From the NCBI GenBank assembly GCA_028284955.1, contig JANQQS010000130.1, forward strand, positions 1 to 64,000: a DNA stretch of 64,000 nt, read 5' to 3'. Positions 8,460-64,000 of the stretch are shown one piece after another. The position numbers and the translations under genes are program-made. Origin of the DNA: Myxococcota bacterium. Its GTDB lineage: Bacteria; Myxococcota_A; Polyangia; Polyangiales; Houyiibacteriaceae. A model generated the notes under the pieces. The model had not been told where the DNA came from, ran no database searches, and was given only the letters and a program-made list of their open reading frames with translations. Every line of letters starts with the position of its first letter. Within the stretch, counting starts at the first letter, position 1.

Positions 8460-8466
8460 ACTAGCC

Positions 8467-9165: not shown

Positions 9166-9234
9166 CACGACATCTGGACGCCATACGGAGCACCTCGCAA
9201 ACGGCCCGCGAATGTGCGAGACAGTGCCGTTTGC

Positions 9235-10491: not shown

Positions 10492-10548
10492 GTTCAACGT
10501 TTCTCTGGGCCGGTCGTTTGATCGAAGGAGTCGTTCGATCGAGGAGAC

Positions 10549-11151: not shown

Positions 11152-11164
11152 AGCGGACTCGGAG

Positions 11165-11425: not shown

Positions 11426-11515
11426 TTTCGATTCGGGTTCGGGTACCGCATCAGAATCCGGCTTCTGGTTCTAGAAACGCGTGACACGCGGCCAACAACT
11501 GAACATAATAGCAGT

Positions 11516-12607: not shown

Positions 12608-12738
12608 CTACACGCAACGACCCGACCTTCCGGCAGCCACCTCTCCCTCCCCGCGACGACCTCGACGCATAGGATCCGGCGCCAGGATCGCGAAGGGGCT
12701 TCTAAGCGTCGACCCGTAGTGGTACACCCCGATATGAC

Positions 12739-46527: not shown

Positions 46528-49500
46528 CTACCTAGCTCGAGCGCGCCGTCGACCCAAGGCGGCGCGCCGAGCCGCCGCGCGATCGAGGCTCTGCTCGAGC
46601 CCGGCGCCGCTCCCGCCGTCTCCGAGAAACTCGACCAGCGCTGCGATGGTGGGGAATCGATACAGGTCGGTGATGCTGAGGTTCGCAGAGAGCGCTTTGC
46701 GGAGCTCGCGATGCGCCTGCACAGCGAGCAGCGAGTGCCCTCCGAGCTCGAAAAAATTGTCCTTCGTGCTGACGTTCGACACACCAAGTACGTTTCGCCA
46801 CACTTCGGCGATGACTTTCTCGGTTTCGTTCTCGGGGGCGACGTATTCGGCGCGAGATTTCTTCTGCACTTGGTCCGGTCGCGGCAGCGCTTTGCGGTCT
46901 ACCTTGGCGTTGGGCGTCAGCGGAAACTGCTCGAGCACCAACACGTGCGAGGGGACCATGTAGTCCGGGAGCCCTTCCGCGAGCCGATCGCGAAGCGCTT
47001 GCTCTTCCACCGTCTCCCCTTCTGCGTCAGGATGCAGGGTGACATACGCCACGAGGCGCTTGTCTCCCGGGCTGTCTTCGCGCGCAAGGACCACGGCCTC
47101 TCGAACTTCCGCGCAGGCAGTAAGTCGCGATTCGATTTCTCCGAGCTCGATGCGATACCCGCGCAGTTTGACTTGATGGTCGATGCGGCCGAGGAAATCG
47201 AGTTCGCCATTGGCTCGAAAGCGCACCAAATCGCCCGTGCGATAGAGCCGATGATCGCCTTCGCGAAACGGATCGGGCACAAACCGCTCTGCGGTGAGTT
47301 CCGGTCGGTCCAAATAGCCGCGCGTTACTCCATCTCCGCCGATATAGAGCTCTCCTGGAACGCCCACGGGAACCGGCTGCCGAGCGCTATCGAGCACGTA
47401 GAGCTGCGTATTGGCGATGGGGCGGCCGAGGCCTACGACGCCTTCAGACGATGTCGCCGGAGTCTCGCCAGAGGATGAAGGGCTGGGTGACGCCTGCGCA
47501 GTGGACGACCAAATGGTCGTCTCCGTGGGGCCATACATGTTGAGCACCCGCGCTTTGGTGACCTGCTCCAGTTCCGACACGAGCGAAGTGGGGAGCGCTT
47601 CTCCTCCGAGCATCATCGTCTGCACATGACTCAGAGACGCGCGCGCTTCATGGTTCATGAGCAACATGCGCGCCATGCTCGGAGTGCATTGCAGATGCGT
47701 CACTTGATGGCGCTCGATTTGAGCCGGAAACGATTGCGACTCTTCTGCGCCGGCCGCGGGCTGAACGACTTTTGGTCGGCTCGTGCGCTGAACGACCTGG
47801 GCAACGTAGGTCAAGCTCTTCATCACTTCGGCAACCGGGGCCCCGTAGTCGACCAAGCAAGCGACCTCGTCTACTCCGATCGCTTTGAGTTGGTTGACTC
47901 GCGCGACGGCATCTTCCGGCGTGCCAAAGAGCCCGCTGTCATTGAAGTAGCGCTCAAACGCAAACTCCAAGATGGCATCCATCTCGGATTGATCGAGCGT
48001 CTGAAGGTCGACCTGCATCGGATTGGTGACGCCTTCGGGACGCTTGAAGGCCGGAAACGCCCACGCGTACTGCTTGATCAACGCGGCCGCGCTTTTCAGG
48101 TACGAAATCATGGGTTGCTTGGCGATCGCCCGAACCTCTTCGCGGTCTTCTCCGAGCAACGTATGGAGCATGAGCGTGACTTTGTATTGCGAAGGGTCGC
48201 GGCCGTGTTCGACGAGCGCTGCTCGATAGATTTTGATCTTTTCGGCGACCTCGTCGATCGACTGGCCGAGCAAATGCGTCAGCACGTGAAGTCCGAGTCG
48301 ACCGGCGTCCTTGTAGGTCTGCGGGTTGCCGGCCGTGGTTAGCCACATCGGGAGCTCGCTCTGCATCGGCCGGGGCTGAGTCACCACCGCATGACGGGCG
48401 CCTTCGTTGCGTTCAAACTCAACCGCCTCTCCGCGCCAAAGCTTTCGAATCACTTCAATGTCGCGGATCATTGCGGTCTTGTTGTTCGGCGGAGCATTCT
48501 CGGGACGCAACACAAAGTCATCCGGTTGCCATCCCGACGCGCATGCGAGCCCTACGCGGCCGCCGCTGAGGTTGTCGACGACGGCCCATTCTTCGGCAAT
48601 GCGGATCGGCGAATGGAGCGGCACGACGCAGCTTCCTGCGCGGACCTGCACGTTCTTCGTGATCGCCGCCACCGCCGCTCCCGTCACTGCGGGATTAGGA
48701 AAGGGGCCGCCAAACGCGTGAAAGTGGCGCTCCGGCGTCCACACCGCCGCGAACCCGTGTTCGTCGGCGTATCTCGCGCCATCCAAGAGCAGCTGGTACT
48801 TGCCGCCTCCCTGGTCGTCATCGTTGCCCCAATAAAAGAGACTAAAATCCATGGAGCGCTGAAGCACTTCCGCAGGCACGTCAGACGAAGCGGCGGCTTG
48901 GGTACGGTCGCGATACACCACGACGCGAAAACCACGCGCGAGGGTGTAGAACAGCTCGAGCACGGAGATATCAAAGCTCAAGCTCGTTACCGCAAGCCAT
49001 GTCCCGGGGCTCGTCTCCGAGGCGGGCGGCACACGCTCATCCATCCCTGCAAAAAAGTTGGCTACATTGCGGTGCTCGACCATGACCCCTTTGGGGCGGC
49101 CGGTGGAGCCGGAAGTGTAGATGACGTACGCGAGGTGCTCGGGAGTCACGCCGACGTTCGGGTTCTCCCGAGAAGCAGTCTCTCGATCAGAAATAGCTTC
49201 TTCGTCCAGAACGAGCACCTTGCGCCCCGATGCGAGCGTGCCCAGCCCGTCCTTCGCTTCATCGTGGGTCACGATGACCGGGGCGCGGCTGTCTTCGATC
49301 ATCAGCTGAATACGCTCTGCAGGATACTCGGGGTCGAGCGGAACGTATGCGCCGCCCGCTTTTTGAATCGCGAGCGCCCCGACCACGAGCTCCAAACTTC
49401 GATAGACGTAGAGGCCGACCCGAGCGTCTGGGGTCACGCCCAGTTTGATGAGTCGGTGTGCCACATGGTTGGCTTTTTCGTTGAGCTGAGCGTAAGTCAG

Positions 49501-51222
49501 CGCGTCGCCTTCAAAGACCAACGCGACCGCGTCCGGGGTTTTCGCGACCTGCTTCTCGAAAAGCTGGTGGACGCACGCGGACTCAAAGCTCGCTTCGGTG
49601 CGGTTCCATTCCACGACCATGCGCTCGCGTTCTTCTGCGCTGAGCACCGACAGCGACGACACCGCCGCCGCGCCACCCGCGGCGAGCGCCTCTTTCATCT
49701 GCGCGAGCACGACCTGCAGGCGCTCGGAGGCCGCCGAGATCACGGACGCGGGAAGTCGGCGTTCGTCAAGATAGAGCGCTTCGTCGGTGATGGTGACGAG
49801 GCTGCCGGGTACCGCGTGAGTGCGACCGGGGGCGAACGCGACCCGAAACGAAGCATGAGACGCGTCTGGATGACGGGCAACGACATCGCGGGCGTAGGAA
49901 ACCCGCCGCCGAACACGCTCCAGCTCGCCTTCGGCATCCGAAACCAAATCGGCGACGGTCCCTACCGCGCGAACTCGGAACGGAACCACGTCGGCGAAGA
50001 AAGGCTCGTCGCCGCCAATCGCCTGTGCGAGCGCGTCATCTGCAAAACCAACATGAAACTCGGTCTGGCCGCTCACTCGAGACAGCCACGCGCCAATGCC
50101 CGCGAAGAGCTCGTGGTCGCTTAGGCTGCTCCGTTCAAACTCTGCGCGGGCGTACGACGCTTCATGGGCGTAGGACTCCGTGCGGGTGTCGTCTTTGGCA
50201 TCGAAGGGCCATTCGAGCGCCGTGATTCGGGAAAGCCGACGCGCCCAGAACCCATCGTGCTTGCACAGGTCTGCGTTTCGTTCAGACAGTTTCGAGCGAG
50301 CCGAAGCATCAAGGCTTGCGAACGCATCTCCGACTTGGAAACGCCCCAAGTCCACGTCGTCGCCATTCTGGTCGGCGAGCTTCGAGACAACCACCGCCGC
50401 AGAACCGGTCGCCACCACCACGCCGTGGTCGTGCTTGGCGAGGATCGCACCGGGCGCGCCAGAACCCTGCGGGCTGTCCTCCGCCAACGAAACCTGGGAT
50501 ACGAGATAGACGCTTCCTTTGCACAGCGTCTTGGCGATGTGCAGCGGGTTTGGATAAGAACCAAAATCGAGCGCGCGTACCAATGCGACAATCGATTCCG
50601 CATCCTGCGACCAGTCGATCGTCGCGAGAGCATCTGGACGATCGTGTTTGCCGAAATAGGTTCGCTGGGTGAGGTCTTGCTTGGTTCGTTCAAGCGCGTC
50701 GTTTCCCAGCTGGTCGCAAAGCTCTCCGAACGACTCAATGGCTGCTTGGTAACACTGAGTATTGATTTCAAGCGCGGTGGATAGCGGCGCGACGTCAAAC
50801 TCGCGCTGCACCAAAATATCTCCTTCGTCTACCCCGCCTTCAATCAGATGCCAGGTCACCCCGTGCGAGGATTCCCGGTGAATCAATGCCCAGTTGGGTG
50901 CGTTCAGGCCCGCGTAGCGAGGCAATAGGCCGTCGTGAAAGTTGATCGCGCCTCGCTTCGCTTTCTTCAGCACCTCGCCCGGAATGACCGATAGATTGGC
51001 AATACTGAGCAGCCAATCAAAACCGTCCGGCAAGCGAGCCGCGAGGTCACGCCCAGGAGCGACAATCTCGATGGACCGTTTTTGCGCCCAGCTTTTGATC
51101 GCAGCGTTTTGCGAGACCACTTGGAGCACCGAGTGCCCCCGCTCCAGCAGCACTTCGGCACACTGAATGAGCAGTGACTCGTCTCCAATGAGCACCGATG
51201 AATATGGATTGTGCGTTGTCAT
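46528..51222 (-). CDS. NRPS: formyltransferase - partial condensation - adenylation with embedded monooxygenase - carrier
   Basis: This 1564-residue enzyme has four parts. Residues 1-300 are a formyltransferase with Asn94, His96 and Asp132 of the Met-tRNA formyltransferase catalytic set (INFHDGLLPRYAG). Residues about 310-545 resemble only the C-terminal half of a condensation domain, with no HHxxxDG motif. The adenylation domain runs from about 548 to 1450 (YTSGSTGRPKG, FDIS at 750, NMYGPTETT, YRTGDL, NAKVDRKAL). It is split between cores A4 and A5 by a luciferase-like FMN monooxygenase (about 790-1145). The carrier serine is Ser1497 in LGGHSLLA. It has no thioesterase, so it probably starts a chain. 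An AAGGTG site precedes the ATG. Confidence 0.93.
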   Translation of the reverse strand: MTTHNPYSSVLIGDESLLIQCAEVLLERGHSVLQVVSQNAAIKSWAQKRSIEIVAPGRDLAARLPDGFDWLLSIANLSVIPGEVLKKAKRGAINFHDGLLPRYAGLNAPNWALIHRESSHGVTWHLIEGGVDEGDILVQREFDVAPLSTALEINTQCYQAAIESFGELCDQLGNDALERTKQDLTQRTYFGKHDRPDALATIDWSQDAESIVALVRALDFGSYPNPLHIAKTLCKGSVYLVSQVSLAEDSPQGSGAPGAILAKHDHGVVVATGSAAVVVSKLADQNGDDVDLGRFQVGDAFASLDASARSKLSERNADLCKHDGFWARRLSRITALEWPFDAKDDTRTESYAHEASYARAEFERSSLSDHELFAGIGAWLSRVSGQTEFHVGFADDALAQAIGGDEPFFADVVPFRVRAVGTVADLVSDAEGELERVRRRVSYARDVVARHPDASHASFRVAFAPGRTHAVPGSLVTITDEALYLDERRLPASVISAASERLQVVLAQMKEALAAGGAAAVSSLSVLSAEERERMVVEWNRTEASFESACVHQLFEKQVAKTPDAVALVFEGDALTYAQLNEKANHVAHRLIKLGVTPDARVGLYVYRSLELVVGALAIQKAGGAYVPLDPEYPAERIQLMIEDSRAPVIVTHDEAKDGLGTLASGRKVLVLDEEAISDRETASRENPNVGVTPEHLAYVIYTSGSTGRPKGVMVEHRNVANFFAGMDERVPPASETSPGTWLAVTSLSFDISVLELFYTLARGFRVVVYRDRTQAAASSDVPAEVLQRSMDFSLFYWGNDDDQGGGKYQLLLDGARYADEHGFAAVWTPERHFHAFGGPFPNPAVTGAAVAAITKNVQVRAGSCVVPLHSPIRIAEEWAVVDNLSGGRVGLACASGWQPDDFVLRPENAPPNNKTAMIRDIEVIRKLWRGEAVEFERNEGARHAVVTQPRPMQSELPMWLTTAGNPQTYKDAGRLGLHVLTHLLGQSIDEVAEKIKIYRAALVEHGRDPSQYKVTLMLHTLLGEDREEVRAIAKQPMISYLKSAAALIKQYAWAFPAFKRPEGVTNPMQVDLQTLDQSEMDAILEFAFERYFNDSGLFGTPEDAVARVNQLKAIGVDEVACLVDYGAPVAEVMKSLTYVAQVVQRTSRPKVVQPAAGAEESQSFPAQIERHQVTHLQCTPSMARMLLMNHEARASLSHVQTMMLGGEALPTSLVSELEQVTKARVLNMYGPTETTIWSSTAQASPSPSSSGETPATSSEGVVGLGRPIANTQLYVLDSARQPVPVGVPGELYIGGDGVTRGYLDRPELTAERFVPDPFREGDHRLYRTGDLVRFRANGELDFLGRIDHQVKLRGYRIELGEIESRLTACAEVREAVVLAREDSPGDKRLVAYVTLHPDAEGETVEEQALRDRLAEGLPDYMVPSHVLVLEQFPLTPNAKVDRKALPRPDQVQKKSRAEYVAPENETEKVIAEVWRNVLGVSNVSTKDNFFELGGHSLLAVQAHRELRKALSANLSITDLYRFPTIAALVEFLGDGGSGAGLEQSLDRAAARRAALGRRRARAR

Positions 51223-51252
51223 GCGAGTAGCACCTTTGCTTGATGAATTTCC

Positions 51253-52251
51253 TTACTGCGTAGCAAGGACAGCACCGGTCACTGCTCCGGTCGCCATGAT
51301 GGAAAGAAGCGGCGAGAGGCGCTCGATAACTTCACCCGCGCTTCCCGTCCATTCCTCGGTCACGTAGACAATATCGCCCGCGGCAAGCTCTACCCCCGAG
51401 CTTTTCCCATCCACCAATGCACGCAAGCTCGTACGGTACACTTGCGGCGCTTTGAGCGGCCCACGAACAATATGGATATCCGAGCGATCTCCGTTTTCCG
51501 CCAAGCCGCCCGCCAGAGCGAGCGCTTCCGACAATCGGATGCCGGGGCGGTAGGGCAGAGTGCGCGCGGAATCTACCGCACCAAGCACGATGACTCGCTG
51601 ACCGACACGCGCAGGCACATACAAATGGTCTCCCGCACGAACACGCACGTTGTGTCGAGGATGACCGCGCAAAGCGAGTCGTATGCTCACCGGAACGGCC
51701 GAACCTTTACGAATGAGCCGCGCCGCATCGAGATCCGCGATGTGTTCGAGGCCGGCTTCGCTTGACTCCACCAGCGGCCCTCCCGCCATCGCCACCAGGT
51801 CTGCTACGCGGGTGCCCGGAGCCACTCGAATGCGGCTTGGGGTCCGCACCGCGCCCACGACCGTCGCTTGATGTCCCGCCGACTCGCTGATCGTCAAGCT
51901 CACGGTGAGGACCCGGTGAAATCGACTGAGCGCCTCCTCGACGCGACGCTCCGCCTCGGACAGCTTCAAGCCCCCGACCTGAACATCGCCAGCCAGCGGA
52001 ATGTGCATGAACCCGCGTTCGTCCACGACGATACCGGTCTGGTCGTCCGTCTCGCGCGACATCATGTGCAGCGTAACCACGTCGCCGGGAAGCAGACGCA
52101 AAGGCTCGGGAGAGTCCTTGGCGAGCCCCGCCGGAACCGTATTCTGCGGAGCTGAAAACGACTCGTCTTGCGACGGAATCGTGGGCGCGCGGGGCAGTCG
52201 GGGCGCACACGCGGCCGAACACACAACCAGCAAGGCCAAAAAAGTTTTCAC
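51253..52251 (-). CDS. Wza-like polysaccharide export lipoprotein
   Basis: This outer-membrane or periplasmic export protein of about 332 residues belongs to the polysaccharide export family. The signal VKTFLALLVVCSAAC ends in a lipobox. The export domain (LRLLPGDVVTLHMMSRE, GFMHIPLAGDVQVGGLKLSEAERRVEEAL in part) and two SLBB-like beta-grasp repeats (ATVVGAVRTPSRIRVAPG and VIVLGAVDSARTLPYRPG) are present. A hydrophobic C-terminal stretch, SPLLSIMATGAVTGAVLA, could span the outer membrane. A GTG at 52251 and a TTG at 52260 are both possible. The NRPS starts 30 bases downstream on the same strand. Confidence 0.88.
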   Translation of the reverse strand: MKTFLALLVVCSAACAPRLPRAPTIPSQDESFSAPQNTVPAGLAKDSPEPLRLLPGDVVTLHMMSRETDDQTGIVVDERGFMHIPLAGDVQVGGLKLSEAERRVEEALSRFHRVLTVSLTISESAGHQATVVGAVRTPSRIRVAPGTRVADLVAMAGGPLVESSEAGLEHIADLDAARLIRKGSAVPVSIRLALRGHPRHNVRVRAGDHLYVPARVGQRVIVLGAVDSARTLPYRPGIRLSEALALAGGLAENGDRSDIHIVRGPLKAPQVYRTSLRALVDGKSSGVELAAGDIVYVTEEWTGSAGEVIERLSPLLSIMATGAVTGAVLATQ

Positions 52252-52556
52252 GCGATGCAACTAGCGCGGAGCCCGGAGCGCTGCAACACGCTGATTGCCC
52301 TATTTGATCTTTCCGACATTTTCGTAATTGCCGTCACCCATTCGTACCTTGCACGACACGTAGGTGCTGTTAGATTGTTTGACCATCTGGTCCCACACGG
52401 AGCAGAAAGTTTTACCGAGAACGGATTTCGCTTCTACCAAAAAAACGCAGCGGGATCGAGAAATCTGGTCAGATTCGGAACCGTCTCGGAGAACACCCAC
52501 ACCTCGGCAATGTGATTAGGAAAGCGCCCCCGCTTTTTGGCGGTGAGGAGGACATT
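52252..52556. promoter_or_regulatory. Divergent promoter region between export lipoprotein and priming transferase genes
   Basis: This 300-base gap separates two oppositely transcribed operons and is clearly richer in A and T than the flanks. It should hold promoters for both. A TTGACC at 52379-52384 resembles a -35 box for the plus strand, but I find no good -10 at the right distance. Short minus-strand frames inside (for example 52300-52500) have no recognisable content. Confidence 0.45.
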
Positions 52557-53966
52557 ATGCCCGGTTCAGATGGATTTTTTCAGCCTCGAGTTTCTGCATG
52601 GAGCGTGCTCGTTCGGCTTGGTGACTCAGCGCTCATCGTCATCGCCCACTTCCTCGCGATTTACGCGTACGGCGAAGAATGGCGCGCCATTCACTCGACA
52701 TCGTCGGCCATCGCAGTGCTGGTGTTTCAATTCGCCGGCGGAACGCTGGGCCTCTACCCGAGTATGTTTGGCCAGCCGCTGCGCCGGGAATTGACGGGCG
52801 TCTGGGCCGCATGGTTCGCACTCATGCCGATGCTGTTGCTGCTCGCATTTATTTCCAAGACATCCGCCGACTTCTCTCGTGTGATCACGCTCGGATGGTT
52901 CGTTGCGGCGCCGGTGAGCATCGCGCTGTGGCGCATGTCGCTGCGCTACGGCGGACACAAGCTACGCGAGCGAGGGCGCAATATTCGCGCCACGGCCATC
53001 GTGGGTATGACGCCGCTCGGAGAACGGGTGGCGCAGGTGATGCGGCAGAGCCCGTGGCTCGGATTGAAGATGCACGGCTTCTACGACGACCGAAACGTCA
53101 ATCGTTGCTGCTCGATTCCTGAGGACCTCGGTCAACTGAAGGGCGGCCTCGATGAACTTGTGACCGCCGCACGAAACGGCGAGCTCGATTTGATCTACAT
53201 TGCGCTTCCGCTCCGAGCGGAGCCGCGGGTTCAGGAGCTTTTGCGCAAGCTTGCGGACACGACCGCGTCGGTCTACGTGGCGGCTGATTTCTACACCCAC
53301 TACCTGCTCCATCGGCGCTGGGGCGTGGTCGGTGATGTGCCCGTGGTCAGCGTGCACGAAACCCCGTTCTACGGGGTGGACGGCTGGTTGAAGCGCGCCG
53401 AAGACATCGTGCTCGGATGTGCCATCATGGTGCTCATTACGATTCCGATGATGGTCATCGCGGTCGCCGTCAAGTTGAGCTCCAAGGGCCCCGTTTTCTT
53501 CCGCCAGCGCCGCTACGGTCTGAACGGGGAGGTCATCGATATCTTGAAGTTCCGGTCGATGACGGTCACCGAAGACGGCGACGACTTGAAGCAAGCGGTA
53601 CGCGACGACCCTCGGGTCACCAAAGTCGGCGCGTTTATTCGGTCCACCTCGCTCGATGAGCTTCCGCAGTTCATTCACGTGATTACGGGCAAGATGAGCA
53701 TTGTGGGTCCCCGACCGCACGCCGTGAAACACAACGAAGTGTATCGCACCAAGATTCCCGGCTACATGCTCCGTCATAAGGTGAAACCCGGAATCACCGG
53801 ATGGGCGCAAGTGAACGGTTGGCGCGGAGAGACCGACACGCTTGAGAAAATGGAAAAGCGTGTCGAGCACGATCTTCACTACATTCGCAACTGGGATCTA
53901 CTTTGGGACCTCAAGATTATCTTCATGACCGTGTTTGGATCAGCCGCACGGCGAAACGCTTACTAA
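52557..53966 (+). CDS. WcaJ-type undecaprenyl-phosphate sugar phosphotransferase
   Basis: This priming transferase moves a sugar phosphate from a UDP-sugar to undecaprenyl phosphate and starts exopolysaccharide repeat units at the inner membrane. The 469-residue protein has four N-terminal helices, a CoA-binding-like middle domain (ATAIVGMTPLGERVAQ) and the C-terminal bacterial sugar transferase domain. That domain contains KGPVFFRQRRYGLNGE, DILKFRSM, STSLDELPQFIHVITGKMSI, VGPRPHAV and HKVKPGITGWAQVNGWRGET in order. The ATG at 52557 follows a strong GAGGAGG site. It pairs functionally with the divergent Wza-like gene. Confidence 0.94.
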   Translation: MPGSDGFFQPRVSAWSVLVRLGDSALIVIAHFLAIYAYGEEWRAIHSTSSAIAVLVFQFAGGTLGLYPSMFGQPLRRELTGVWAAWFALMPMLLLLAFISKTSADFSRVITLGWFVAAPVSIALWRMSLRYGGHKLRERGRNIRATAIVGMTPLGERVAQVMRQSPWLGLKMHGFYDDRNVNRCCSIPEDLGQLKGGLDELVTAARNGELDLIYIALPLRAEPRVQELLRKLADTTASVYVAADFYTHYLLHRRWGVVGDVPVVSVHETPFYGVDGWLKRAEDIVLGCAIMVLITIPMMVIAVAVKLSSKGPVFFRQRRYGLNGEVIDILKFRSMTVTEDGDDLKQAVRDDPRVTKVGAFIRSTSLDELPQFIHVITGKMSIVGPRPHAVKHNEVYRTKIPGYMLRHKVKPGITGWAQVNGWRGETDTLEKMEKRVEHDLHYIRNWDLLWDLKIIFMTVFGSAARRNAY

Positions 53967-53986
53967 ACGGCCGCCTCCGAGGCATC

Positions 53987-54895
53987 GTGGCCCGCGGCGC
54001 GGCACTCGCTTCGCTGGCATGCTCGGGAGGACACTGCGCGCCAAGCCGTGTTGAACGACTGTCTCCGGAAGAAGCGTCCGGCGAAGCGCTGCCCGCGGTG
54101 GATCACGCTCGAGTGTTCTTTGTCGGACACAGCCTGATCAACTTCACGATTCCCAGCATGATCGGAAGCATCGCGGAAAGCTTGGGTGTCGCGTACGAAC
54201 ATGACGAGCAAATCATGGACGGTGGCGCGCTAAAAATGAACTGGGAAGAGCACGGGCGTGCCAAGGGCAGCAATGCCCAAAAGAAGATTCCTGGAGGCGG
54301 GTTCGACGTGTTGGTGATGACCGAAGCGGTCGATCTCGATGACATGATCCGCTGGATGGAACCGGCGAAGTACGGCGGCAAGTTCTATTCGCTCGCGGTC
54401 AACGCAAACCCCAAAGTTCGGCCGCTCTTCTATGAGACTTGGCACGAACGCGATTTGGTGCGCAAGCGATTCGGTTTGAACACGGGAGGCAACTGGCGTT
54501 CGTATATCGACGACGACCTCGGCAAATGGGAAACCATTGTCCGAGATATCAACGCTGCAGAAAAAGGACCCCGCCTGCATATGATTCCCGGGGGTCAGGC
54601 CCTCGCGACACTGGTGGATGAAATCCGGGCGGGGCGAGTAGATGGGCTAAAACGCGAAACGGACTTGTTCTCGGACAACGTTCACTTGAGCCCACTCGGC
54701 AACTACTTTCTCGCGCTGGTCCAGTTCGCCACGATCTATCGGCGAAACCCTGCCGGAGCGACCCATCAGCCTGAGGACGAAAAGGGAACGCGCATCGAGG
54801 TCGCGCCCGAAACCGCCAAGACGATGCAGCGAATCGCGTGGGACGTGGTGCGCGGCTATTCGTGGTCGGGGGTCACGACGACCGCTCGACGATAA
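53987..54895 (+). CDS. SGNH/GDSL-like hydrolase, probable lipoprotein
   Basis: This protein of about 302 residues starts at a GTG (53987), 20 bases after the sugar transferase stop. The N-terminus VARGAALASLACSGG looks like a very short lipoprotein signal with cysteine after SLA; a longer frame upstream would overlap the transferase gene. Block I is VFFVGHSLINF (Ser49), and the catalytic Asp-His pair is in FSDNVHLSPLGNYF near residue 228. These features suggest an esterase or acetyl-transfer role on polysaccharide. Substrate and family are not certain. Position after the priming transferase supports a role in exopolysaccharide modification. Confidence 0.68.
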   Translation: MARGAALASLACSGGHCAPSRVERLSPEEASGEALPAVDHARVFFVGHSLINFTIPSMIGSIAESLGVAYEHDEQIMDGGALKMNWEEHGRAKGSNAQKKIPGGGFDVLVMTEAVDLDDMIRWMEPAKYGGKFYSLAVNANPKVRPLFYETWHERDLVRKRFGLNTGGNWRSYIDDDLGKWETIVRDINAAEKGPRLHMIPGGQALATLVDEIRAGRVDGLKRETDLFSDNVHLSPLGNYFLALVQFATIYRRNPAGATHQPEDEKGTRIEVAPETAKTMQRIAWDVVRGYSWSGVTTTARR

Positions 54896-54962
54896 GTTGC
54901 AGCGACCCAGCCATCGTGATTCGCGGTCGCCGATCGAAGCGGATTGCGAAAGGAAGCCGCCG

Positions 54963-55838
54963 CTACGTGAGCGACGTAAGTGCTTCCTGAAGCGACTCGG
55001 TCCAGTGGCGAACCCGAACATCCGGCGCCTGTTCGCGGAGCCAAGCCCACGCCTTCGATTTGTCGAGCACGCTGAAATGCGGGCGATTCGTGGTGCCGGA
55101 GTATTCGGCGGTGGAGATCGGCAACACCCGCGCGGCGGACGAGTCGAGCAAGCCGGCACGCACGGCTTCGCCACGGATCGCGACCGCAAAATCATACCAG
55201 CTGGCTACGCCGGCGTCGGTCCAATGAAAGATGCCAGTCGGCGCAGACGATCGCGCCATCGCCCAGAGAAACTCGGCGAGCGGTTTCGCCCATGTCGGGG
55301 TGCCCACTTGGTCATCAATGACGGTAAGTTTGTCTCGCTCGCCCATGAGTCGAAGCATCGTGCGCATGAAGTTCGTGCCGAACTTCGAGTACAGCCAAGC
55401 CGTGCGCACGACCGTGACCCGATCATGAGCGCCAAACACGGCTTGTTCGCCCTCAAGCTTGGAGCGGCCGTATGCTTGAATGGGCCCGGTGGGGTCGTCG
55501 ATCTGGTAGGGCAAACAGCCTCGGCCATTGAAGACATAGTCCGTCGACAAGTGAATCAGATGGACATTGAAGTCGCGGCATGCCTCCGCCAGATTACGCG
55601 GACCGACTACGTTGATTTGGCGGGCGACGTCTGGGTTCGATTCGCAGGCTTCCACAGGCATCACGGCAGCATTGATCAATACGTCCGGGCGAGCTTCGCC
55701 AACTACCTCTCGAACGTTCGTCGCGTCCGTAATGTCGAGCTGATCACGACCGCGAAACTCGCCTTGCACACCATGGGGATGAACTTCTTGCAGCTGGCGG
55801 CCAAGCTGGCCCTGTCCTCCGGCAACCAATACCTTCAT
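54963..55838 (-). CDS. rfbD: dTDP-4-dehydrorhamnose reductase
   Basis: This enzyme makes dTDP-L-rhamnose by NAD(P)H reduction of dTDP-4-keto-rhamnose, the last step of the pathway. The 291-residue protein starts MKVLVAGGQGQLGRQL. It has DITDATNVREVVGEARPDVLINAA (in part), HLSTDYVFNGRG, the catalytic YGRSK, VVRTAWLYS, and GIFHWTDAG. The ATG at 55838 with a GGAG six bases upstream is the clear start although the frame is open far upstream. The other rhamnose genes (rfbA, B, C) are not in the window. It follows the glycosyltransferase by 64 bases. Confidence 0.94.
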   Translation of the reverse strand: MKVLVAGGQGQLGRQLQEVHPHGVQGEFRGRDQLDITDATNVREVVGEARPDVLINAAVMPVEACESNPDVARQINVVGPRNLAEACRDFNVHLIHLSTDYVFNGRGCLPYQIDDPTGPIQAYGRSKLEGEQAVFGAHDRVTVVRTAWLYSKFGTNFMRTMLRLMGERDKLTVIDDQVGTPTWAKPLAEFLWAMARSSAPTGIFHWTDAGVASWYDFAVAIRGEAVRAGLLDSSAARVLPISTAEYSGTTNRPHFSVLDKSKAWAWLREQAPDVRVRHWTESLQEALTSLT

Positions 55839-55902
55839 GCTCGTCTCCTTGAGACTTGGGCCTTGCTCGGTCTCATGCACCCAGGTTTCATGCCCCCCCG
55901 GT

Positions 55903-56856
55903 TCATGCATTGAGCCCGACACTATGTCGAAAGAAGTCTCGAAGATAGTGCGGCGGATCGTCCGCGTTTGACTTTCTTTGAATTCGGCGACGCACTTCCC
56001 AAAACGCGCTTCCCGCGAGCCGAGCCGCATTCGCGGCATGCAGGTACATTCGGCCGTGGCTTTTTCTGAGATAGTAGCTGCGGGAATCAAACCAGTACGT
56101 CGGCACGGGGCGGCTCATGTCTTTGGTTTGGGTGGTCGCGCCACCAATGTGGGTCACCGAACTCTGGGGAACATAGACCGTCGGCCATCCGCGGAGCAGC
56201 GCTCGGCGACATAGATCGGTTTCCTCGAAGTAGAGAAAGAACGTCTCGTCGAACAAGCCGACATCCTGCAGCACTGACCTACGAATCATCATGCTGGCCC
56301 CAGCGAGCCAATCCACTCGCTCCGGCGACTGCGGAATAGGAAAATGAATCATGCGACGCTGGAGCAACTTTGTCACGATGCCGAGGCGAACGGAGTCTTC
56401 AAATTCGCTCGCGATACTGGGAAAGCGAAACGCGGTGCGATGAGGCTCGCCGTCGGGACCGTGAATGTAGCTTCCTGCGATGCCTACCGCGGGATGGGCT
56501 TCGAGATAGTCGACGAGCGTAGCGATCGCACCAGCGTCCGGAAACGCATCCGAGTTGAGCAAGTAGACGAAATCTGGCGGCGTCGCGCCGTCTAGAGCGC
56601 CGCGCACTGCGACATTGTTTCCGTAGCCAAAGCCGCCGTTCTTCGGAGACGCCAACACGGTAACCACATCGGACAGGTGTTCTTCGCGCACGCGAGTCTG
56701 CAGTTGCTCGAGTGAACCGTCTTGGGAATCGTTATCGACCACCACGACATGAAACCCTGCCTCGCGGAAAGGTTCGAGCTCGCGGAGCGCGGCTTGCACG
56801 GCCTGAAACGTCATGTCTGCCGTCTTGTAGTTGACGATGCTGACGAGAATTTTCAT
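55903..56856 (-). CDS. Family 2 glycosyltransferase, rhamnosyltransferase-like
   Basis: This 317-residue inverting GT-A transferase is close to the WbbL-like rhamnosyltransferase group. It has IVNYKTADMTFQAVQAAL at the start, VVVVDNDSQDGS, SPKNGGFGYGNNVAVRGA, a LLNSDAFPDAGAI metal-site motif, and WLAGASMMIRRSVLQDVGLFDETFFLYFEETDLCRR (in part). The ATG at 56856 lies seven bases past the PKS stop, so it is very likely cotranscribed with the PKS. It sits upstream of rfbD, suggesting transfer of rhamnose, either to polysaccharide or to the polyketide product. The acceptor cannot be told from sequence. Confidence 0.9.
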   Translation of the reverse strand: MKILVSIVNYKTADMTFQAVQAALRELEPFREAGFHVVVVDNDSQDGSLEQLQTRVREEHLSDVVTVLASPKNGGFGYGNNVAVRGALDGATPPDFVYLLNSDAFPDAGAIATLVDYLEAHPAVGIAGSYIHGPDGEPHRTAFRFPSIASEFEDSVRLGIVTKLLQRRMIHFPIPQSPERVDWLAGASMMIRRSVLQDVGLFDETFFLYFEETDLCRRALLRGWPTVYVPQSSVTHIGGATTQTKDMSRPVPTYWFDSRSYYLRKSHGRMYLHAANAARLAGSAFWEVRRRIQRKSNADDPPHYLRDFFRHSVGLNA

Positions 56857-56863
56857 GGCCGCT

Positions 56864-59800
56864 CTACTCGGCTGCCGCGGGGGAAGCGTGGGCGGCGGCT
56901 TGCGAGGGTTCTCCCGTTCGAGAGGAAGGCGCCGACGCATGGGACAGACCGCGAGACCCAAAATCAGTGGGCGAACCATTCGTTCCGGACGACGCAGCAA
57001 GCTCGGTCGCGCGCTGCGCGCGTTCGGCATCTTCGATGTGCTTTCGAAGAAGCGCCGCCATGGTGCGCACGTTCGGCTCGAGCACCATGCTGTCGTGGTC
57101 GCCAGGAACTTCGTGCACATCGACCTGCTTCACGAGCGAAGACCAGCCGTTGTCTTCGTATACGTACTCGCGCTCCGAGTTGAGCATGCGCCCACCTCCT
57201 ACGCGAAACACGTCGTCCAGCTTCGGCCGGTAGAGAATCACCGATCCGTCGTAGGGACGAATCTGGTAGCGCCCGAGCGCGGCTCGAAACGCTGCCTCGA
57301 TAGCGTCGTTGTGGAACTCGCTGGCTTCTTGTTCGACCGGCTCGGAGAAACGTTTGGCCAGCTGCTCGAGTTCCCATTCCAGCTTGCCCCGCGCCCAGTC
57401 CGATACGTACGAAGAGCCTTGGCTTTTCAGCGATTGAAGGTGAATCGCAACGCGGTCGCGAAATACTGCGCGGTTGGCTTCGGGCAGTGGCGTATCGAGA
57501 AGCAGAAGCATCGATACGTCTTCTCCGTCGGCGATAAGCTGCTGCGCCATCTCGTAGGCGGTAATTCCGCCCCCCGAAAACCCACCCAGCATATACGGCC
57601 CGTGGGGCTGCACGGTGCGGAGCTCGGCAATATAGTCCCGTGCCATGTCTTCGAAGGTTTGATGCGGCTCCTGGTCGCCATACAACCCCCGAGCTTGGAG
57701 CCCGTAAAACGGACGGTCGGTGCCGACTAGGTGAGCGAGATGGCGCAGGTTGAGCACGTTTCCGAACATTCCGGCCACGAGAAAGAACGGGTTCTGCGCT
57801 CCGCCATCGCCAGTATGCATCGCCACCAGATGCGTGTAGCGGGTCCGATGGGTGGGCGCGCTTGATTCGTCGGTATCGCTTTCGCCGATCGTCTCGCGGA
57901 TGAGATGCGCGCACGCTTCAATCGTCGGCGCCTCGAAGAGCACAGAAATCGGGAACTCAGCCTGGTACGCACGCTTGATTTTGGAGAACAGGCGCACCGC
58001 GATGAGTGAGTGCCCGCCCAAATCAAAAAAGCTATCCTGCACGCCAACCTGTTCCACGCCGAGCAGCTCTTCCCACAAGCCCACCAGCGTGCGCTCGATT
58101 TCGTCTCGCGGGGCCACATACTCGCTATCGAGCTCGGGCCGGGCGAACTTGGCCGACGAACCCTCCTCCGCCGCGAGCGTATGTTCGGCCTGACGAATCA
58201 ACCCGGGCAAATCGAGCGAACTGATCAGAATCTCTGGCTCGGGTTGACGCAGCACCCGCGCGAACGCCTCCACCCCTTCGGCCGGGCGAATGCCCTGTTC
58301 CATATTGGCGAGGAGTTGCTCTTCGGCAGGTGAAAGCGCTTGCTCGCTGCCCGCATCGCTATCGAACGCGACTTCTGAGGCGGTAGGCTGAGCGGCGAGC
58401 GCAAAGTCGACGCGGCCGCCCGCCATCCGGCGGATCACGAAGTCATCGACTTCGATAAGCACGTTTCCAAGTTCGTCGGCGATGACGATGTCGAAGGAAG
58501 CAAAGTCTGCATCCTCTGCGCCAGAGGTCGACGATCGGCCGCCACGAACCCAGCTGCGAATTTTGCTTTTCAGCGGCGCATGCACTCGAACCCGGCGATA
58601 GGACACGGGCACCCACAGGTTCTCGCCTTCGTAGCCTTCGATAAGGTTCATCGCATAGCCGGTCGCGAGGTCCATCAATCCCGGATGGATTCGATATCCT
58701 TCGTCGAAATCGCCCGCGTACTCGGGCGGCAACTCGAGGTCGGCGAGCGCTTCGCCGTTGCCGTAGCGGGCGCGACGCAATACGCGCCACCGACCACCAA
58801 AACGCAAATGCGCTTCCTGAGGAGAACGCAGACTCGAAGATTCGGCGACGTCGTCAATCTTGGTGCAGCGCGCAGCGATCTGCTCCAGGTCGATGGGTGG
58901 TGTTTCGCGCAAGTCCACAAGCGACACACCGCCCTGCGCGTGGAGCTGCCAACCCGCTCGGCCTTCGAACTCCACGGCGCTGCGCAACTCAAAGAGATAG
59001 CCTTCGTCGCTCCGGCGGAGCTTCGCGCGAACTTCGCGGGCCGGCTCTTCATCCGAGATGGTCAACGGGCGCAGAAAAAACATATCCTGCAACTCAAAGC
59101 CGCCACGCTCTCCGTGTGCGAGCAGAGCCTGGGCCGCCATCTCGAGATAGCCGGTTCCGGGAATCAGGGCGTGCCCGTCGCGCGTTCGGTGTTCGTCGAG
59201 AATCCAGTCGGTGCGGGGCGAGTAGCGGCGGCTGAGCGTGCTCCTGCCCTGAGGGTCGCGCAATCGTCTGTCAAAGAAAGGAAGCGACAGCGCCTCCTCG
59301 GAAGGTCCGCTCGAGCTCTTGTCCGCCATGGCTTCGGCAGCCATCCCTACTTCGTTCCAAATGCCCCAGTTCAGCGCGACGGTATGCGTTTGTGTTCCGC
59401 TGCGACTTTGCGCAAACGCGTTGAGAAAGGCGTTGGCGGCGACGTAGTCCACCTGGCCGACCGGAGCGATAGCCGAGCTCGTAGACGAAAAGAGCACGCA
59501 GAAATCGAGTTCGCCATCTTCGAACAGTGCATCAAGCACCAGCGTACCGTGCACCTTGGGGGTAAAGACTTGCTCGGCTTCCGCAACATCCTTGAGCGGA
59601 ATGAGGTTATCGCGAATCAGGCCTGCAGCATGCAACACGCCGTGTATCGCGCCGAACTCCTCGTGTGCCCGATCGCGCACGCGGCTCATCTCTTCGAGAT
59701 CGGTCACGTCGGCGGCCGCGACCATCACTCGCGCCCCCGCCGCTTCGAGCTCGCGTACGGAAAGGATCCGTCGGCTCGTGACATCTCGATCGCCATGCGT

Positions 59801-62800
59801 TCGAAGCCATTCATCCCACTCGCTGCGGGCAGGAAGGGGGGTCCGCCCGACAAGCACCAATCGGGCTTGGCAGGTCTTGGCCAAGTAGTCCGCGAAAACC
59901 AAACCCAGCCCCCCCAGACCACCTGTGATCAAGTACACGCCGCCATCGCGAAGCGGGGTTTCGCGGCTCTGTGACCTGCGGGTCGGCATCGAATCAGGGC
60001 TGATCGGTGCTGCATCGGCCGCGGAAGGAAGCACTCGCGGCGCATAGGTCTGCTCCCAACGAACCCCCGACCGATAGGCGACCACACTGTTCGTGGGTAC
60101 CGAGTGGAGATCTTCGAGCAGCTGGTCGGTCAACTGTTCAAGTCGCTCATCGCGCGATTTCAACCCAGTCACCGACCGCAGGAGGTCGACCGCTCCTGCG
60201 GCGACTTCACCGCCGAACCCCGAGGGCTTGGCCGCGCGCGGTTCCTGCATACCCAGCGACGAACTGCCCAGCGACGAATTACCCAGCGATGAATTACCCA
60301 GCGAAGAGTTACCCAGCGAAGAGCTGTCGAATACAGGAAGCCGAGACGATGGCGGAAGCTCGAGATCAATGCTCGTGCACGTGATGCCCGGAAACTCTCT
60401 GGGAATGACTTTGCACGGGCCCAGCGCGGTCGCTTTTTCGGGATAGGTAAGCGATTCCTCAGCGACCCGCTGCATGCCGCTCGACACCACGGAAAGATGA
60501 AGCGGCCGAGGCACGCTCTCGTCGCCGATCGCCTGCGCCAAAAAGAGCAAGCTATAAAACCCGCGCTCTAGATTGCGATGGAAGAAGTTCGACCCGGGAC
60601 GGAAAGTCTCTGTCCCTGTCACCAGCCAGAGGTGCACCACGTGGCTCGGCACTTTGCCGATCGCCACCAAGTCGCGCACTAGGGCTTTATATCCTTCTGC
60701 GCCTCGCTCGGGGGAAAGTACATATTCGGTGTCGCTACGCTGCGCATACGCGTCTCCGGGCACGACCGTCACCACCGTGTCTCCCGCGGCGCGCAGGCGC
60801 GCTTTCACGCGTAGACCAATCCCCACGTCATCCATAAAGACGAGCCACGTTCGCTTCGCTTGCGCGGCATCATCGGACGACCCGTCCTCAGAGACCACAG
60901 GCTCGTTTGCGAGCACGGTTTCGAGCTCGGCAAACCGCTTCTTCCAAACGGGCACGTACCCCCACCGTTCGATTCTCTCTTCTTTGGTCAGTGAAGTCTG
61001 CGGCGCGATTTCTAGAACGCCCGGCTCGATAAAGTACGGTTTGTGCTGAAACGCGTAGGTGGGAAGCGATATTCGGTGTCTGGTTTCACCCGCCCAAAGC
61101 AAACCCCAATCGAAACGACCGCCGCACGCCCAAAGGCGCCCCAGCGTCTGAAGATGATACACGTCATCGCCGATCGATTCTTCCGGATGTCGCAGTACGC
61201 TGAACACGTTCTGCGTGGTCACCTGGGAATGCTGCTTGGCAAGCGAGCTCATCGCCTTGCCCGGACCGACCTCGAGAAAGATGCGTCCCGGCTGCTCACA
61301 CAGCGTCACGATTCCGTCGGAGAAATGTACCGTGCGCCGCAAGTGCTCGACCCAGTACGCTGGGTCAGTGGCCTGCTCCGCGGTCAACCATGTACCGGTT
61401 CGGTTGGAGATGGTCGGAATCTCCGGCGCGCGAAGTTCGATGCTTCGCAAGAACGCTTCGAAATCCGGCAGAATGCCGTCCAGCATGCGCGAGTGCGCGG
61501 CAATATCGATCGCGATGCGCTGAGGCTCGATGCCCTGTTCCCGCAAGGCTCGGTCGAGCGCCTCAAGCGCCTCGTCGGGGCCGGACGCAACGCTGAGTTC
61601 AGGGGAGTTCACGCAGGCGAGGTCGAGGGCTTCGTGAACCTTGAGATAAGGTCGAAGCTCGTCCGCGCCCAGCGGGACGCTCAACATGCCGCCGGCCGGA
61701 ACCGTATCGAAAAGTTTGCCGCGCAGATACACAAGCTCGATCGCGTTCTCGAAGGAGAGCACTCCGGCCAAGCAGGCCGCCGTGTTCTCTCCCATGCTGT
61801 GGCCAATGAGCGCCGCGGGCTTCACCCCGTAGCTCATCCACAGCTTCGCGAGCGCGACCTCCATAATCAGAATCGCGGGGAGCTGAACCGATGGTCGACG
61901 AAACGCTTCGTCCGCGTTGCGCACTTCGTCGGGCTGCGTAGCAAACATCAGCTTTTTGATGTCGTAATCGAGCTTCGGCTGGAGCACGGCCAAACCCTGG
62001 TCGACCACTTCACGAAATACCGGCTCGGTATCGTAGAGCTCCCGCCCCATGCCCGCGTACTGCGCGCCGCCTCCCGGAAACATAAAGATCACTTCCGGAG
62101 CTTCGACGCTTGCGGTGTGGGTGAACACCCGCCGGGAATCCTTTTCTTCGAGCAATCGAGCGGCTTCTTCATGGGTGGTCGCTGCGACAACCCGGCGTAC
62201 GTCAAAGTCGCGTCGCCCGTGATGCAGCGAGAAGGCTACATCCGCGAGCGGCTGCTCCGGATGCGCGCGGAGGTGCGCCGCCAGACGTTCCGAGGCGTCG
62301 TTCACCGCGCCTCGTGAGCGCCCCGAAACGACGAGCACTTGAGCGTTGCGCTTCGCTTTGGAAACCGCCTGTCGAGAGGGGGCTTGTTCGATCACCGCGT
62401 GGGCATTGGTGCCGCCGACGCCGAGCGAATTGATCGATGCTCTCCGCGGCCCTTGTTCGCTCGACCACGACGTAAGCGCGTCGTTGACGACAAACGGACT
62501 GTCCTCAAAATCGATGGTGGGATTCGGCTTCTCAAATCCCAAGCTCGGGGGCATTTCGCCCTGCGATACGGCCATCGTCGCCTTGATTAAGCTCGCCACG
62601 CCGGCCGCGGTATCGAGATGGCCAATGTTGGTTTTTACCGAGCCGATGCGGCAAAAACCTTTTTTGTCGGTGCTTTGGCGAAAAGCCTGGGTCAGCGCCG
62701 CAACTTCGATGGGGTCGCCCAAGTAGGTGCCCGTGCCGTGGCACTCGACGTAGCCGATGGTGTCCGCGCTAATATCCGCCAACTCGATCGCCTCGGCGAC

Positions 62801-63685
62801 CGCCGCCGCTTGCCCGTCCACGCTCGGCGCGAGATATCCCGCCTTGCGTGCGCCGTCGTTGTTGACCGCGGTGGCTTTGATCACCGCGTGAATCCGGTCG
62901 CCATCGTTGATCGCGTCCTCGAGGCGACGCAGCACCACCACGCCCGCGCCGCTTCCGAATACGGTGCCTTGAGCGCGGTGATCAAACGCGTGGCAGTGCC
63001 CATCCGGAGAAAGGATCTCGCCGTCCTGAAAGATATAGCCCCGCCGATGCGGAAGCTCGATGGTCACGCCGCCCGCGAGCGCCATATCGCATTCGTGACT
63101 CAGCAAACTCTGCGTGGCGTAGTGCACCGCGACCAGCGACGTGGAACACGCGGTCTGCACGTTCACGCTCGGGCCGGTGAGGTTGAGCGCATAGGAAAGG
63201 CGCGTCGCGAGAAAGTCTTTGTCGTTGCCGGTGTGGCGCAGCAGGAACATTCCCACCGAATCCACTAGGTCGCGATTGCTGCAAACGTTGAAGTAGAAGT
63301 AACTTCCCATCCCGCATCCCGCGAACACGCCAACGGGGCCTTCAAAGCGTTCAGGCGTACGGCCGGCGTCTTCGAACGCTTCCCACGCGACCTCCAAAAA
63401 ATGCCGATGCTGCGGGTCCATGATGGCGGATTCCTTCGGGCTAAATCCGAAAAACTCGCCATCGAACATTTCCATCCGGTCGAGAATCGCCGCCGACTTC
63501 ACATAGTTCTTGTGGTGCAGTCGGTCTTTGGATTCGCCTGCCGCGAGAAGCTCCTCTTCGGTCAGGGGAGTAATCGACTCCACTCCATCCCGTAGGTTTC
63601 GCCAGTATTCATCGAGCGTGTTGGCTCCGGGAACGCGCAGTGCCATGCCAACAATAGCGATGTCATTGGAATTTGATTCAGACAC
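56864..63685 (-). CDS. Type I polyketide synthase KS-AT-KR-DH-carrier-TE
   Basis: This synthase has about 2273 residues; positions count from a TTG at 63697, but the GTG at 63685 with GAGG upstream is the likely start. KS: Cys184 (QTACSTSL), His320 and His360. AT: GHSMGE with Ser634 and an unusual AAHS (733-736) where HAFH or YASH is common. KR: structural half at about 905-1130, TGGLGGLG at 1258 and Tyr1418. DH: His1503, Pro1513 and Asp1676. Carrier: Ser1897 in DLGGHSL. TE: Ser2041 in GGFSGGG, Asp2068, His2201. DH follows KR. A repeat of SSLGN lies at 1126-1150. One extension and release by TE are predicted. Confidence 0.93.
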   Translation of the reverse strand: MSESNSNDIAIVGMALRVPGANTLDEYWRNLRDGVESITPLTEEELLAAGESKDRLHHKNYVKSAAILDRMEMFDGEFFGFSPKESAIMDPQHRHFLEVAWEAFEDAGRTPERFEGPVGVFAGCGMGSYFYFNVCSNRDLVDSVGMFLLRHTGNDKDFLATRLSYALNLTGPSVNVQTACSTSLVAVHYATQSLLSHECDMALAGGVTIELPHRRGYIFQDGEILSPDGHCHAFDHRAQGTVFGSGAGVVVLRRLEDAINDGDRIHAVIKATAVNNDGARKAGYLAPSVDGQAAAVAEAIELADISADTIGYVECHGTGTYLGDPIEVAALTQAFRQSTDKKGFCRIGSVKTNIGHLDTAAGVASLIKATMAVSQGEMPPSLGFEKPNPTIDFEDSPFVVNDALTSWSSEQGPRRASINSLGVGGTNAHAVIEQAPSRQAVSKAKRNAQVLVVSGRSRGAVNDASERLAAHLRAHPEQPLADVAFSLHHGRRDFDVRRVVAATTHEEAARLLEEKDSRRVFTHTASVEAPEVIFMFPGGGAQYAGMGRELYDTEPVFREVVDQGLAVLQPKLDYDIKKLMFATQPDEVRNADEAFRRPSVQLPAILIMEVALAKLWMSYGVKPAALIGHSMGENTAACLAGVLSFENAIELVYLRGKLFDTVPAGGMLSVPLGADELRPYLKVHEALDLACVNSPELSVASGPDEALEALDRALREQGIEPQRIAIDIAAHSRMLDGILPDFEAFLRSIELRAPEIPTISNRTGTWLTAEQATDPAYWVEHLRRTVHFSDGIVTLCEQPGRIFLEVGPGKAMSSLAKQHSQVTTQNVFSVLRHPEESIGDDVYHLQTLGRLWACGGRFDWGLLWAGETRHRISLPTYAFQHKPYFIEPGVLEIAPQTSLTKEERIERWGYVPVWKKRFAELETVLANEPVVSEDGSSDDAAQAKRTWLVFMDDVGIGLRVKARLRAAGDTVVTVVPGDAYAQRSDTEYVLSPERGAEGYKALVRDLVAIGKVPSHVVHLWLVTGTETFRPGSNFFHRNLERGFYSLLFLAQAIGDESVPRPLHLSVVSSGMQRVAEESLTYPEKATALGPCKVIPREFPGITCTSIDLELPPSSRLPVFDSSSLGNSSLGNSSLGNSSLGSSSLGMQEPRAAKPSGFGGEVAAGAVDLLRSVTGLKSRDERLEQLTDQLLEDLHSVPTNSVVAYRSGVRWEQTYAPRVLPSAADAAPISPDSMPTRRSQSRETPLRDGGVYLITGGLGGLGLVFADYLAKTCQARLVLVGRTPLPARSEWDEWLRTHGDRDVTSRRILSVRELEAAGARVMVAAADVTDLEEMSRVRDRAHEEFGAIHGVLHAAGLIRDNLIPLKDVAEAEQVFTPKVHGTLVLDALFEDGELDFCVLFSSTSSAIAPVGQVDYVAANAFLNAFAQSRSGTQTHTVALNWGIWNEVGMAAEAMADKSSSGPSEEALSLPFFDRRLRDPQGRSTLSRRYSPRTDWILDEHRTRDGHALIPGTGYLEMAAQALLAHGERGGFELQDMFFLRPLTISDEEPAREVRAKLRRSDEGYLFELRSAVEFEGRAGWQLHAQGGVSLVDLRETPPIDLEQIAARCTKIDDVAESSSLRSPQEAHLRFGGRWRVLRRARYGNGEALADLELPPEYAGDFDEGYRIHPGLMDLATGYAMNLIEGYEGENLWVPVSYRRVRVHAPLKSKIRSWVRGGRSSTSGAEDADFASFDIVIADELGNVLIEVDDFVIRRMAGGRVDFALAAQPTASEVAFDSDAGSEQALSPAEEQLLANMEQGIRPAEGVEAFARVLRQPEPEILISSLDLPGLIRQAEHTLAAEEGSSAKFARPELDSEYVAPRDEIERTLVGLWEELLGVEQVGVQDSFFDLGGHSLIAVRLFSKIKRAYQAEFPISVLFEAPTIEACAHLIRETIGESDTDESSAPTHRTRYTHLVAMHTGDGGAQNPFFLVAGMFGNVLNLRHLAHLVGTDRPFYGLQARGLYGDQEPHQTFEDMARDYIAELRTVQPHGPYMLGGFSGGGITAYEMAQQLIADGEDVSMLLLLDTPLPEANRAVFRDRVAIHLQSLKSQGSSYVSDWARGKLEWELEQLAKRFSEPVEQEASEFHNDAIEAAFRAALGRYQIRPYDGSVILYRPKLDDVFRVGGGRMLNSEREYVYEDNGWSSLVKQVDVHEVPGDHDSMVLEPNVRTMAALLRKHIEDAERAQRATELAASSGTNGSPTDFGSRGLSHASAPSSRTGEPSQAAAHASPAAAE
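60251..60325. repeat. 15-bp in-frame tandem repeat, five units
   Basis: Five units begin at 60251, 60266, 60281, 60296 and 60311, each differing at one to three bases from the next. On the minus strand they encode SSLGN/SSLGS five times, placed between the structural and catalytic halves of the ketoreductase in the PKS. Confidence 0.95.
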
Positions 63686-63745
63686 AAAGGACCTCAACAG
63701 GTTTATTGCACCGAACTTTACACAGATAGCGTCATTCGCAAGCGC

Positions 63746-64000
63746 TCATCCTCGGCGACGATTCCACAAATAAAGGGCACCCCACCAGGCTGTCACCATC
63801 AAAAAGACCAGCACCCCGCGCACGAACACATGCACGTCGAAACTCTGGGCCAGCATGGCGACCCCAAGCCCGCACCCTGATGCCGCCACCACCATGCAAC
63901 TTAGCCCGAGATCTTGCCGGCGCATGCGGATGCTCTCTCGCTCCACCGCCACCATCGACACGAAGTATTTGAAGAAATCTGCACACGCGAATCCGAGAAC
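63746..64000 (-). CDS. C-terminal part of a small membrane protein (5' end beyond window)
   Basis: The frame is open to the right edge, so the gene is partial. The visible end reads FFKYFVSMVAVERESIRMRR and then two hydrophobic segments (CMVVAASGCGLGVAMLA and VFVRGVLVFLMVTAWWGAL) before a basic WNRRRG tail. An internal GTG at 63961 or ATG at 63955 could start a 69-71-residue two-helix protein on its own. It precedes the PKS on the same strand, with 60 bases between its stop and the PKS GTG. No family is recognised. Confidence 0.5.
   Translation of the reverse strand, partial: VLGFACADFFKYFVSMVAVERESIRMRRQDLGLSCMVVAASGCGLGVAMLAQSFDVHVFVRGVLVFLMVTAWWGALYLWNRRRG

Follow-up and report, generated by a model that had tools for sequence, protein, structure and literature searches.

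We find that the window, the whole 64,000-nucleotide stretch of DNA analysed here, encodes an NRPS and a PKS that, by comparison of genomes, share one pathway, and that the two genes lie in a Wzx/Wzy-type exopolysaccharide locus. From the domain content, which is directly observed, we infer glycine as the substrate, its α-hydroxylation, a single extension, and hence a product and its destination; that the pair is a dedicated two-enzyme assembly line serving the exopolysaccharide locus is a reading we hold with about even confidence. A preliminary description of this DNA had proposed a minimal two-protein line, and that core idea stands, backed by the domain content, the lack of other modules, strict co-occurrence of the genes and relatives in which the NRPS runs in tandem into the PKS. 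It recognized both genes but overlooked the exopolysaccharide genes between them and the setting as a whole.

Table 1. Positions in the window of the two assembly-line genes, their domains and neighbouring genes
Feature	Position	Strand	Remark
Aspartate-semialdehyde dehydrogenase (asd)	45389..46495	-	32 bp downstream of NRPS
NRPS: FT, C-lobe remnant, A (LLM inserted), PCP	46528..51222	-	1564 aa
Basic C-terminal tail of NRPS	46531..46617	-	character kept family-wide
PCP of NRPS	46624..46815	-	PP-binding
Adenylation, C-terminal part	46885..47775	-	residues 1150-1446; A5 and remaining pocket; domain search, alignment
FMN luciferase-like monooxygenase (LLM)	47794..48846	-	residues 793-1143; TIGR04020
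Adenylation, N-terminal part	48883..49575	-	residues 550-780, up to/past A4; AMP-binding 555-776
Condensation, C-terminal lobe	49579..50325	-	residues 300-548; AF2, Foldseek
Formyltransferase (FT) domain	50338..51222	-	residues 1-295; Formyl_trans_N and _C
Polysaccharide export protein (Wza-like)	51253..52260	-	Poly_export, SLBB; 30 bp upstream of NRPS
WcaJ, undecaprenyl-phosphate glucose phosphotransferase	52512..53966	+	TIGR03023 above cut-off
SGNH/DUF4886-like probable secreted esterase or acyltransferase	53996..54895	+	GHSL...DxxH; AF2 pLDDT 87
RmlD-like dTDP-4-dehydrorhamnose reductase	54963..55910	-	start approximate
GT2 glycosyltransferase	55903..56856	-	begins 8 bases past PKS stop
PKS: KS-AT-KR-DH-ACP-TE	56864..63697	-	~2275 aa; start TTG 63697 or GTG 63685
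Thioesterase (TE)	57092..57745	-	conserved Ser, Asp, His
Carrier (ACP) of PKS	57899..58090	-	PP-binding; conserved Ser
Dehydratase (DH)	58421..59281	-	PKS_DH_N and PS-DH; His and Asp invariant
Ketoreductase (KR)	59351..59941	-	domain search; conserved Ser-Tyr-Asn
Acyltransferase (AT)	61247..62089	-	GHSMGE, IAAHS
Ketosynthase (KS)	62384..63667	-	C/H/H invariant in 68 relatives
Wzx-type flippase, 3' end	63746..64000	-	Polysacc_synt_3; runs on to contig position 65281

A scan of GTDB genomes yields 80 full-length relatives of the NRPS, and the PKS is in the same locus in all 65 loci with enough flank; it is still visible in 10 of the 15 loci with short flanks. The converse question, whether a PKS occurs without the NRPS, was examined among the 57 nearer relatives, which belong to the same family or order: the NRPS is carried by 14 of these and the PKS by the same 14, while one further genome, G039, gives no more than a 47% match to KS-AT, which we regard as a different PKS. 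More distant NRPS carriers have a PKS match at threshold in 17 of 17 cases, that in G204 being only a 45% KS-AT match, and the main groups of the NRPS protein tree agree with those of the PKS protein tree. The pair is found in Rhodobacterales, Rhizobiales, Hydrogenophaga and Myxococcota, with Ruegeria, Salipiger, Hydrogenophaga and Aminobacter among its cultured carriers, and the KS-AT region of the PKS in the window is up to 65% identical to that of an alphaproteobacterium; this recurrence and identity point to strong selection and to transfer of the pair as a unit.

Gene order strongly supports action of the NRPS before the PKS. The commonest arrangement is PKS-GT2-NRPS on one strand (52/75), and in Rhizobiales the two genes tend to be divergent; in several genomes of the window's phylum the NRPS immediately precedes the PKS in the same orientation, and in genome G131 the NRPS (2617-7287), a TE-less PKS (7284-12764) and a C-A-PCP NRPS (from 12767) follow in tandem, separated by just a few bases. 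NRPS to PKS is also the only plausible covalent order because a C domain is missing from the starter NRPS, and the tandem genes support this order for the predicted hand-over of a formylated amino acid to a downstream module. The preliminary description had looked to docking sequences to support the order; we find no matching elements between the NRPS C-terminus and the PKS N-terminus, the former being a basic tail (K+R 31% on average in the last 25 residues, vs 13% in other ORFs) and the latter offering only about 10 residues ahead of the KS.

Two candidate variants of this arrangement were rejected. Open frames of 3678 aa (G125) and 3244 aa (G142) that resemble NRPS-PKS gene fusions are stretches that lack stop codons by chance, the NRPS being read in a different frame, and longer match spans in many relatives do not denote a larger NRPS, as its ORFs measure about 1550 aa; these spans probably include the adjoining PKS carrier. 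The extended line of G131 also has an alpha/beta hydrolase (L147:2617-12764 and L149:68-3313), and Hydrogenophaga loci (L012:18272-24199; L016, L017) carry, by the same cluster, an extra NRPS of about 2000 aa with AMP-binding, PP-binding, Condensation and TE domains.

Domain search confirms that the window contains no second C or KS domain. Modules past its right edge, raised earlier as a possible objection to a two-protein line, do not appear: the contig ends at position 72465, and a domain search of these last 8.5 kb reveals no further NRPS or PKS module. Across the genome (a draft, 96.6% complete) there is no Condensation match, the NRPS and the PKS account for both of the carrier domains present in long open frames, and a single PPTase-family gene is located elsewhere (C190); among the relatives, a PPTase gene is near the NRPS in 59 of 80 loci.

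Both genes have intact reading frames in the window. The NRPS gives Pfam matches to formyltransferase, split AMP-binding, AMP-binding_C and PP-binding, and none to Condensation or TE, in agreement with the FT, single A domain, single carrier, incomplete C domain and missing TE listed in the preliminary description; the listed domains are right, but a 350-aa LLM inside the A domain had been overlooked, which matches TIGR04020 at 487.6 bits vs a cut-off of 244.45. Among 81 proteins of the family, no variation is seen in the FT motifs HDG...P and D or in the A4 motif (FDISVLELF, residues 750-758), and little or none in the A-domain pocket and at the PCP Ser. Residues 300-548 are modelled with confidence (AF2 pLDDT 93.3), and their best Foldseek matches (E 2e-9, TMq 0.6-0.69) are C-A proteins, of which they match the C-terminal lobe and linker. 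Since the fold corresponds to a C-terminal lobe and the HHxxxDG condensation motif was sought in the NRPS and not found, the incomplete C domain is a half domain minus its catalytic motif, and perhaps serves as a spacer between FT and A. The protein thus begins with an FT that retains its catalytic residues and has no functional condensation domain ahead of A, as in FT-A-PCP initiation modules of the LgrA/CongA/PtxE type.

The LLM splits the A domain between A4 and A5 (the latter at residues 1228-1240) and is the most conserved region of the NRPS, with 40% of positions invariant in the 81 proteins, vs 13% in the FT and 4% in the C remnant. Its closest solved structure, PuwE (6ket, 370 bits), belongs to another pathway, that of puwainaphycin, and is not part of a glycine A domain. 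The pocket code of the NRPS reads D-I-L-Q-M-G-M-I-W-K, and the aligned pocket of DhbF A1 (5u89), a domain that activates glycine, reads Q, L, G, L, I, W, identical except for L to M. Glycine is therefore a good prediction from the pocket residues, and not proof, because the second A domain of LgrA, which also takes glycine, has pocket residues that differ from this code.

These features suggest the following sequence of reactions. The NRPS would load glycine onto its PCP, the FT would formylate the amine, in place of an upstream chain delivered by a condensation domain, and the inserted FMN monooxygenase would hydroxylate the glycyl α-carbon to give N-formyl-α-hydroxyglycyl-S-PCP. Transfer to the PKS ketosynthase, one extension (with malonyl as the presumed extender), reduction and dehydration would then yield 4-formamido-4-hydroxybut-2-enoyl-ACP, from which the TE would release or transfer the C4 acyl unit. 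The FMO domains of MtaG and MelG, which lie between a4 and a5, hydroxylate the α-carbon of glycine, and in myxothiazol and melithiazol the hydroxylated glycine collapses into an amide and a glyoxyl thioester (PMC10204066). Because of this cleavage the PKS step may start from another unit: N-formyl-α-hydroxyglycine would fall apart into formamide and glyoxylyl-S-PCP, and the two-carbon aldehyde would prime the PKS, leading to a 4-oxocrotonyl-type unit. We consider such a collapse rather unlikely; the LLM sits in a predicted glycine-type A domain just where MtaG and MelG have theirs, but the hydroxyglycine of solanimycin B persists (PMC10204066), and the formyl group would serve only as a leaving group.

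In the window, the export protein, WcaJ, SGNH enzyme, RmlD and glycosyltransferase genes separate the NRPS from the PKS, and the further 8.5 kb of contig adds the flippase together with a chain-length-like protein and a probable polymerase, as well as another SGNH protein and an unannotated protein with the look of a glycoside hydrolase. The joint presence of WcaJ, Poly_export, Polysacc_synt_3 and a chain-length-like protein identifies a Wzx/Wzy-type exopolysaccharide locus, a setting that recurs in Rhodobacterales, Rhizobiales, Hydrogenophaga and Myxococcota and also surrounds the annotated plasmid copies in Ruegeria and Aminobacter. The Wzy candidate has a homologue (L040:2952-4442) that matches Wzy_C below cut-off, the copy in the present locus being without a Pfam match. 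The SGNH protein has DUF4886 and GDSL/CE3 esterases as its best Foldseek matches, and a probable secreted enzyme of this kind is present at 36 of 80 loci. In the related loci that were grouped, the NRPS has no asd neighbour, so asd is possibly unrelated to the pathway. A protein with an EYSNEVWN-type motif (C39:68868-70634, equal to L009:8868-10634, minus strand; also L040:18347-20848, there fused to an SGNH-like domain) looks glycoside hydrolase-like by eye but matches no Pfam or NCBIfam family above cut-off. Four adjoining genes that include an RmlD homologue, presumably a dTDP-rhamnose operon, lie near this cluster in several Rhodobacterales (L046, L047, L064, L065).

As a final step in the proposed scheme, the acyl unit, free or sugar-bound, would be used to build or modify the polymer made by the surrounding genes. 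A position next to exopolysaccharide genes is in itself no proof that the product becomes part of the polymer; the line could instead make a free signal, metal chelator or antibiotic, and simply lie alongside these genes or be co-regulated with them. The terminal TE, of the kind that serves free acids or lactones, and the distance of 20-55 kb between PKS and NRPS in some Myxococcota are compatible with such a product, but the same exopolysaccharide surroundings are found in distant phyla, with 65 of 80 related loci having one or more of the export or assembly families tested for, and a GT2 homologue sits between PKS and NRPS in most relatives, so that we judge a free product unlikely. We suggest, tentatively, that the widely shared NRPS-PKS line is integral to one kind of exopolysaccharide machinery, in which thiotemplate chemistry would directly modify the matrix polysaccharide, the GT and SGNH enzymes attaching a reactive hydroxy-formamido (or 4-oxo) crotonyl unit to the polymer or removing it. 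If the acyl unit does go onto the polymer, assembly-line chemistry would shape the biofilm matrix; the prediction itself is small, involving two proteins and one extension step.

For the PKS, Pfam agrees with the single KS, AT, KR, DH, carrier and TE described earlier, and the catalytic residues of the KS, AT (Ser and IAAHS), KR, DH, ACP and TE are conserved in 68 relatives. An iterative PKS, which would elongate the starter into a longer polyene acyl chain, for example as part of a lipid or pigment, appears improbable. The layout, a single KS with KR and DH but no ER, is one able to iterate, and the domain order KS-AT-KR-DH-ACP is unusual; the nearest solved KS-AT relatives are nonetheless modular and hybrid enzymes, and in G131 the chain goes on to a C-A-PCP NRPS, an arrangement still compatible with iteration.

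The product put forward in the preliminary description, an N-formyl 4-amino-2-enoic acid-like compound, is probably wrong in detail: because the embedded monooxygenase predicts an α-hydroxylated glycine, a 4-formamido-4-hydroxycrotonyl (or glyoxylyl-derived) unit is expected. For N-formyl-4-aminocrotonate or its oligomer to be made, the LLM would have to be inactive or irrelevant; the FT, A, PCP, KS, AT, KR, DH and TE that such a route uses are all present, but the unmatched conservation of the LLM within the NRPS makes this very improbable, and multimerisation by the TE to an oligomer or ester finds no support.

Each part of the line is already known separately. LgrA, the linear gramicidin synthase, is the closest solved whole-protein relative of the NRPS and shares its FT-A-PCP start, but it lacks a monooxygenase, makes a peptide and loads valine first. 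The starters of conglobatin (CongA), phthoxazolin (PtxE), oxazolomycin and rhizopodin feed formylated glycine to a PKS, as proposed here and as documented for conglobatin and phthoxazolin (PMC4504003, PMC5764310); for these starters, however, no inserted monooxygenase is described, the PKSs fed are long and modular, and a CongE/OzmP cyclodehydratase, absent here, takes part. An oxazole starter of the kind known from the conglobatin, oxazolomycin and phthoxazolin lines, in which F-A(Gly)-PCP comes first and supplies a PKS (PMC4504003, PMC5764310), is scarcely credible, since the SGG(K/R)DS motif of CongE/OzmP/PtxD occurs in 0 of 152 sequences and the CongE/OzmP ATP-pyrophosphatase (SGGKDS) is absent from the window and all related loci searched.

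MtaG and MelG have the same a4/a5 insertion as the NRPS, in a glycine A domain where that of the NRPS is predicted to take glycine, but they are chain-terminal, with an upstream C domain and a TE for removal of the glyoxyl unit; the NRPS has an FT in place of the upstream chain and only a lobe of C. With no C match and no TE, it is not a terminal module releasing an amide, and is thus partly MtaG/MelG-like yet not of that type. SolF of the solanimycin pathway combines a glycine module with a flavin monooxygenase domain and gives an α-hydroxyglycine product, as predicted here, but its insertion is between a8 and a9 and it is a mid-chain module of a long assembly line. SolG, the best NCBIfam match, is a C-A-P protein matched far below cut-off and was set aside. 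In Phaeobacter, PKS and NRPS genes (Inhi_1972/1974, Daep_00048/00050) are separated by one gene, as here, and possibly belong to this family; the genome papers give them no product or exopolysaccharide link. A literature search covering mostly non-subscription papers returned none that joins this NRPS/PKS architecture to exopolysaccharide, no described product of the pair, and no description of an LLM-interrupted formylglycine starter combined with a one-module, TE-bearing PKS in an exopolysaccharide locus.

Elsewhere in the window, a 1570-aa open frame of coding-like composition (12739-17451, plus strand) matches nothing in Pfam at E values of up to 1. A hybrid histidine kinase (37552-39513, plus strand) has the myxobacterial EspC and EspA as its best NCBIfam matches, below cut-off, and an LpxR-family outer membrane protein (43216-44277, plus strand) adjoins a fatty acid desaturase gene.
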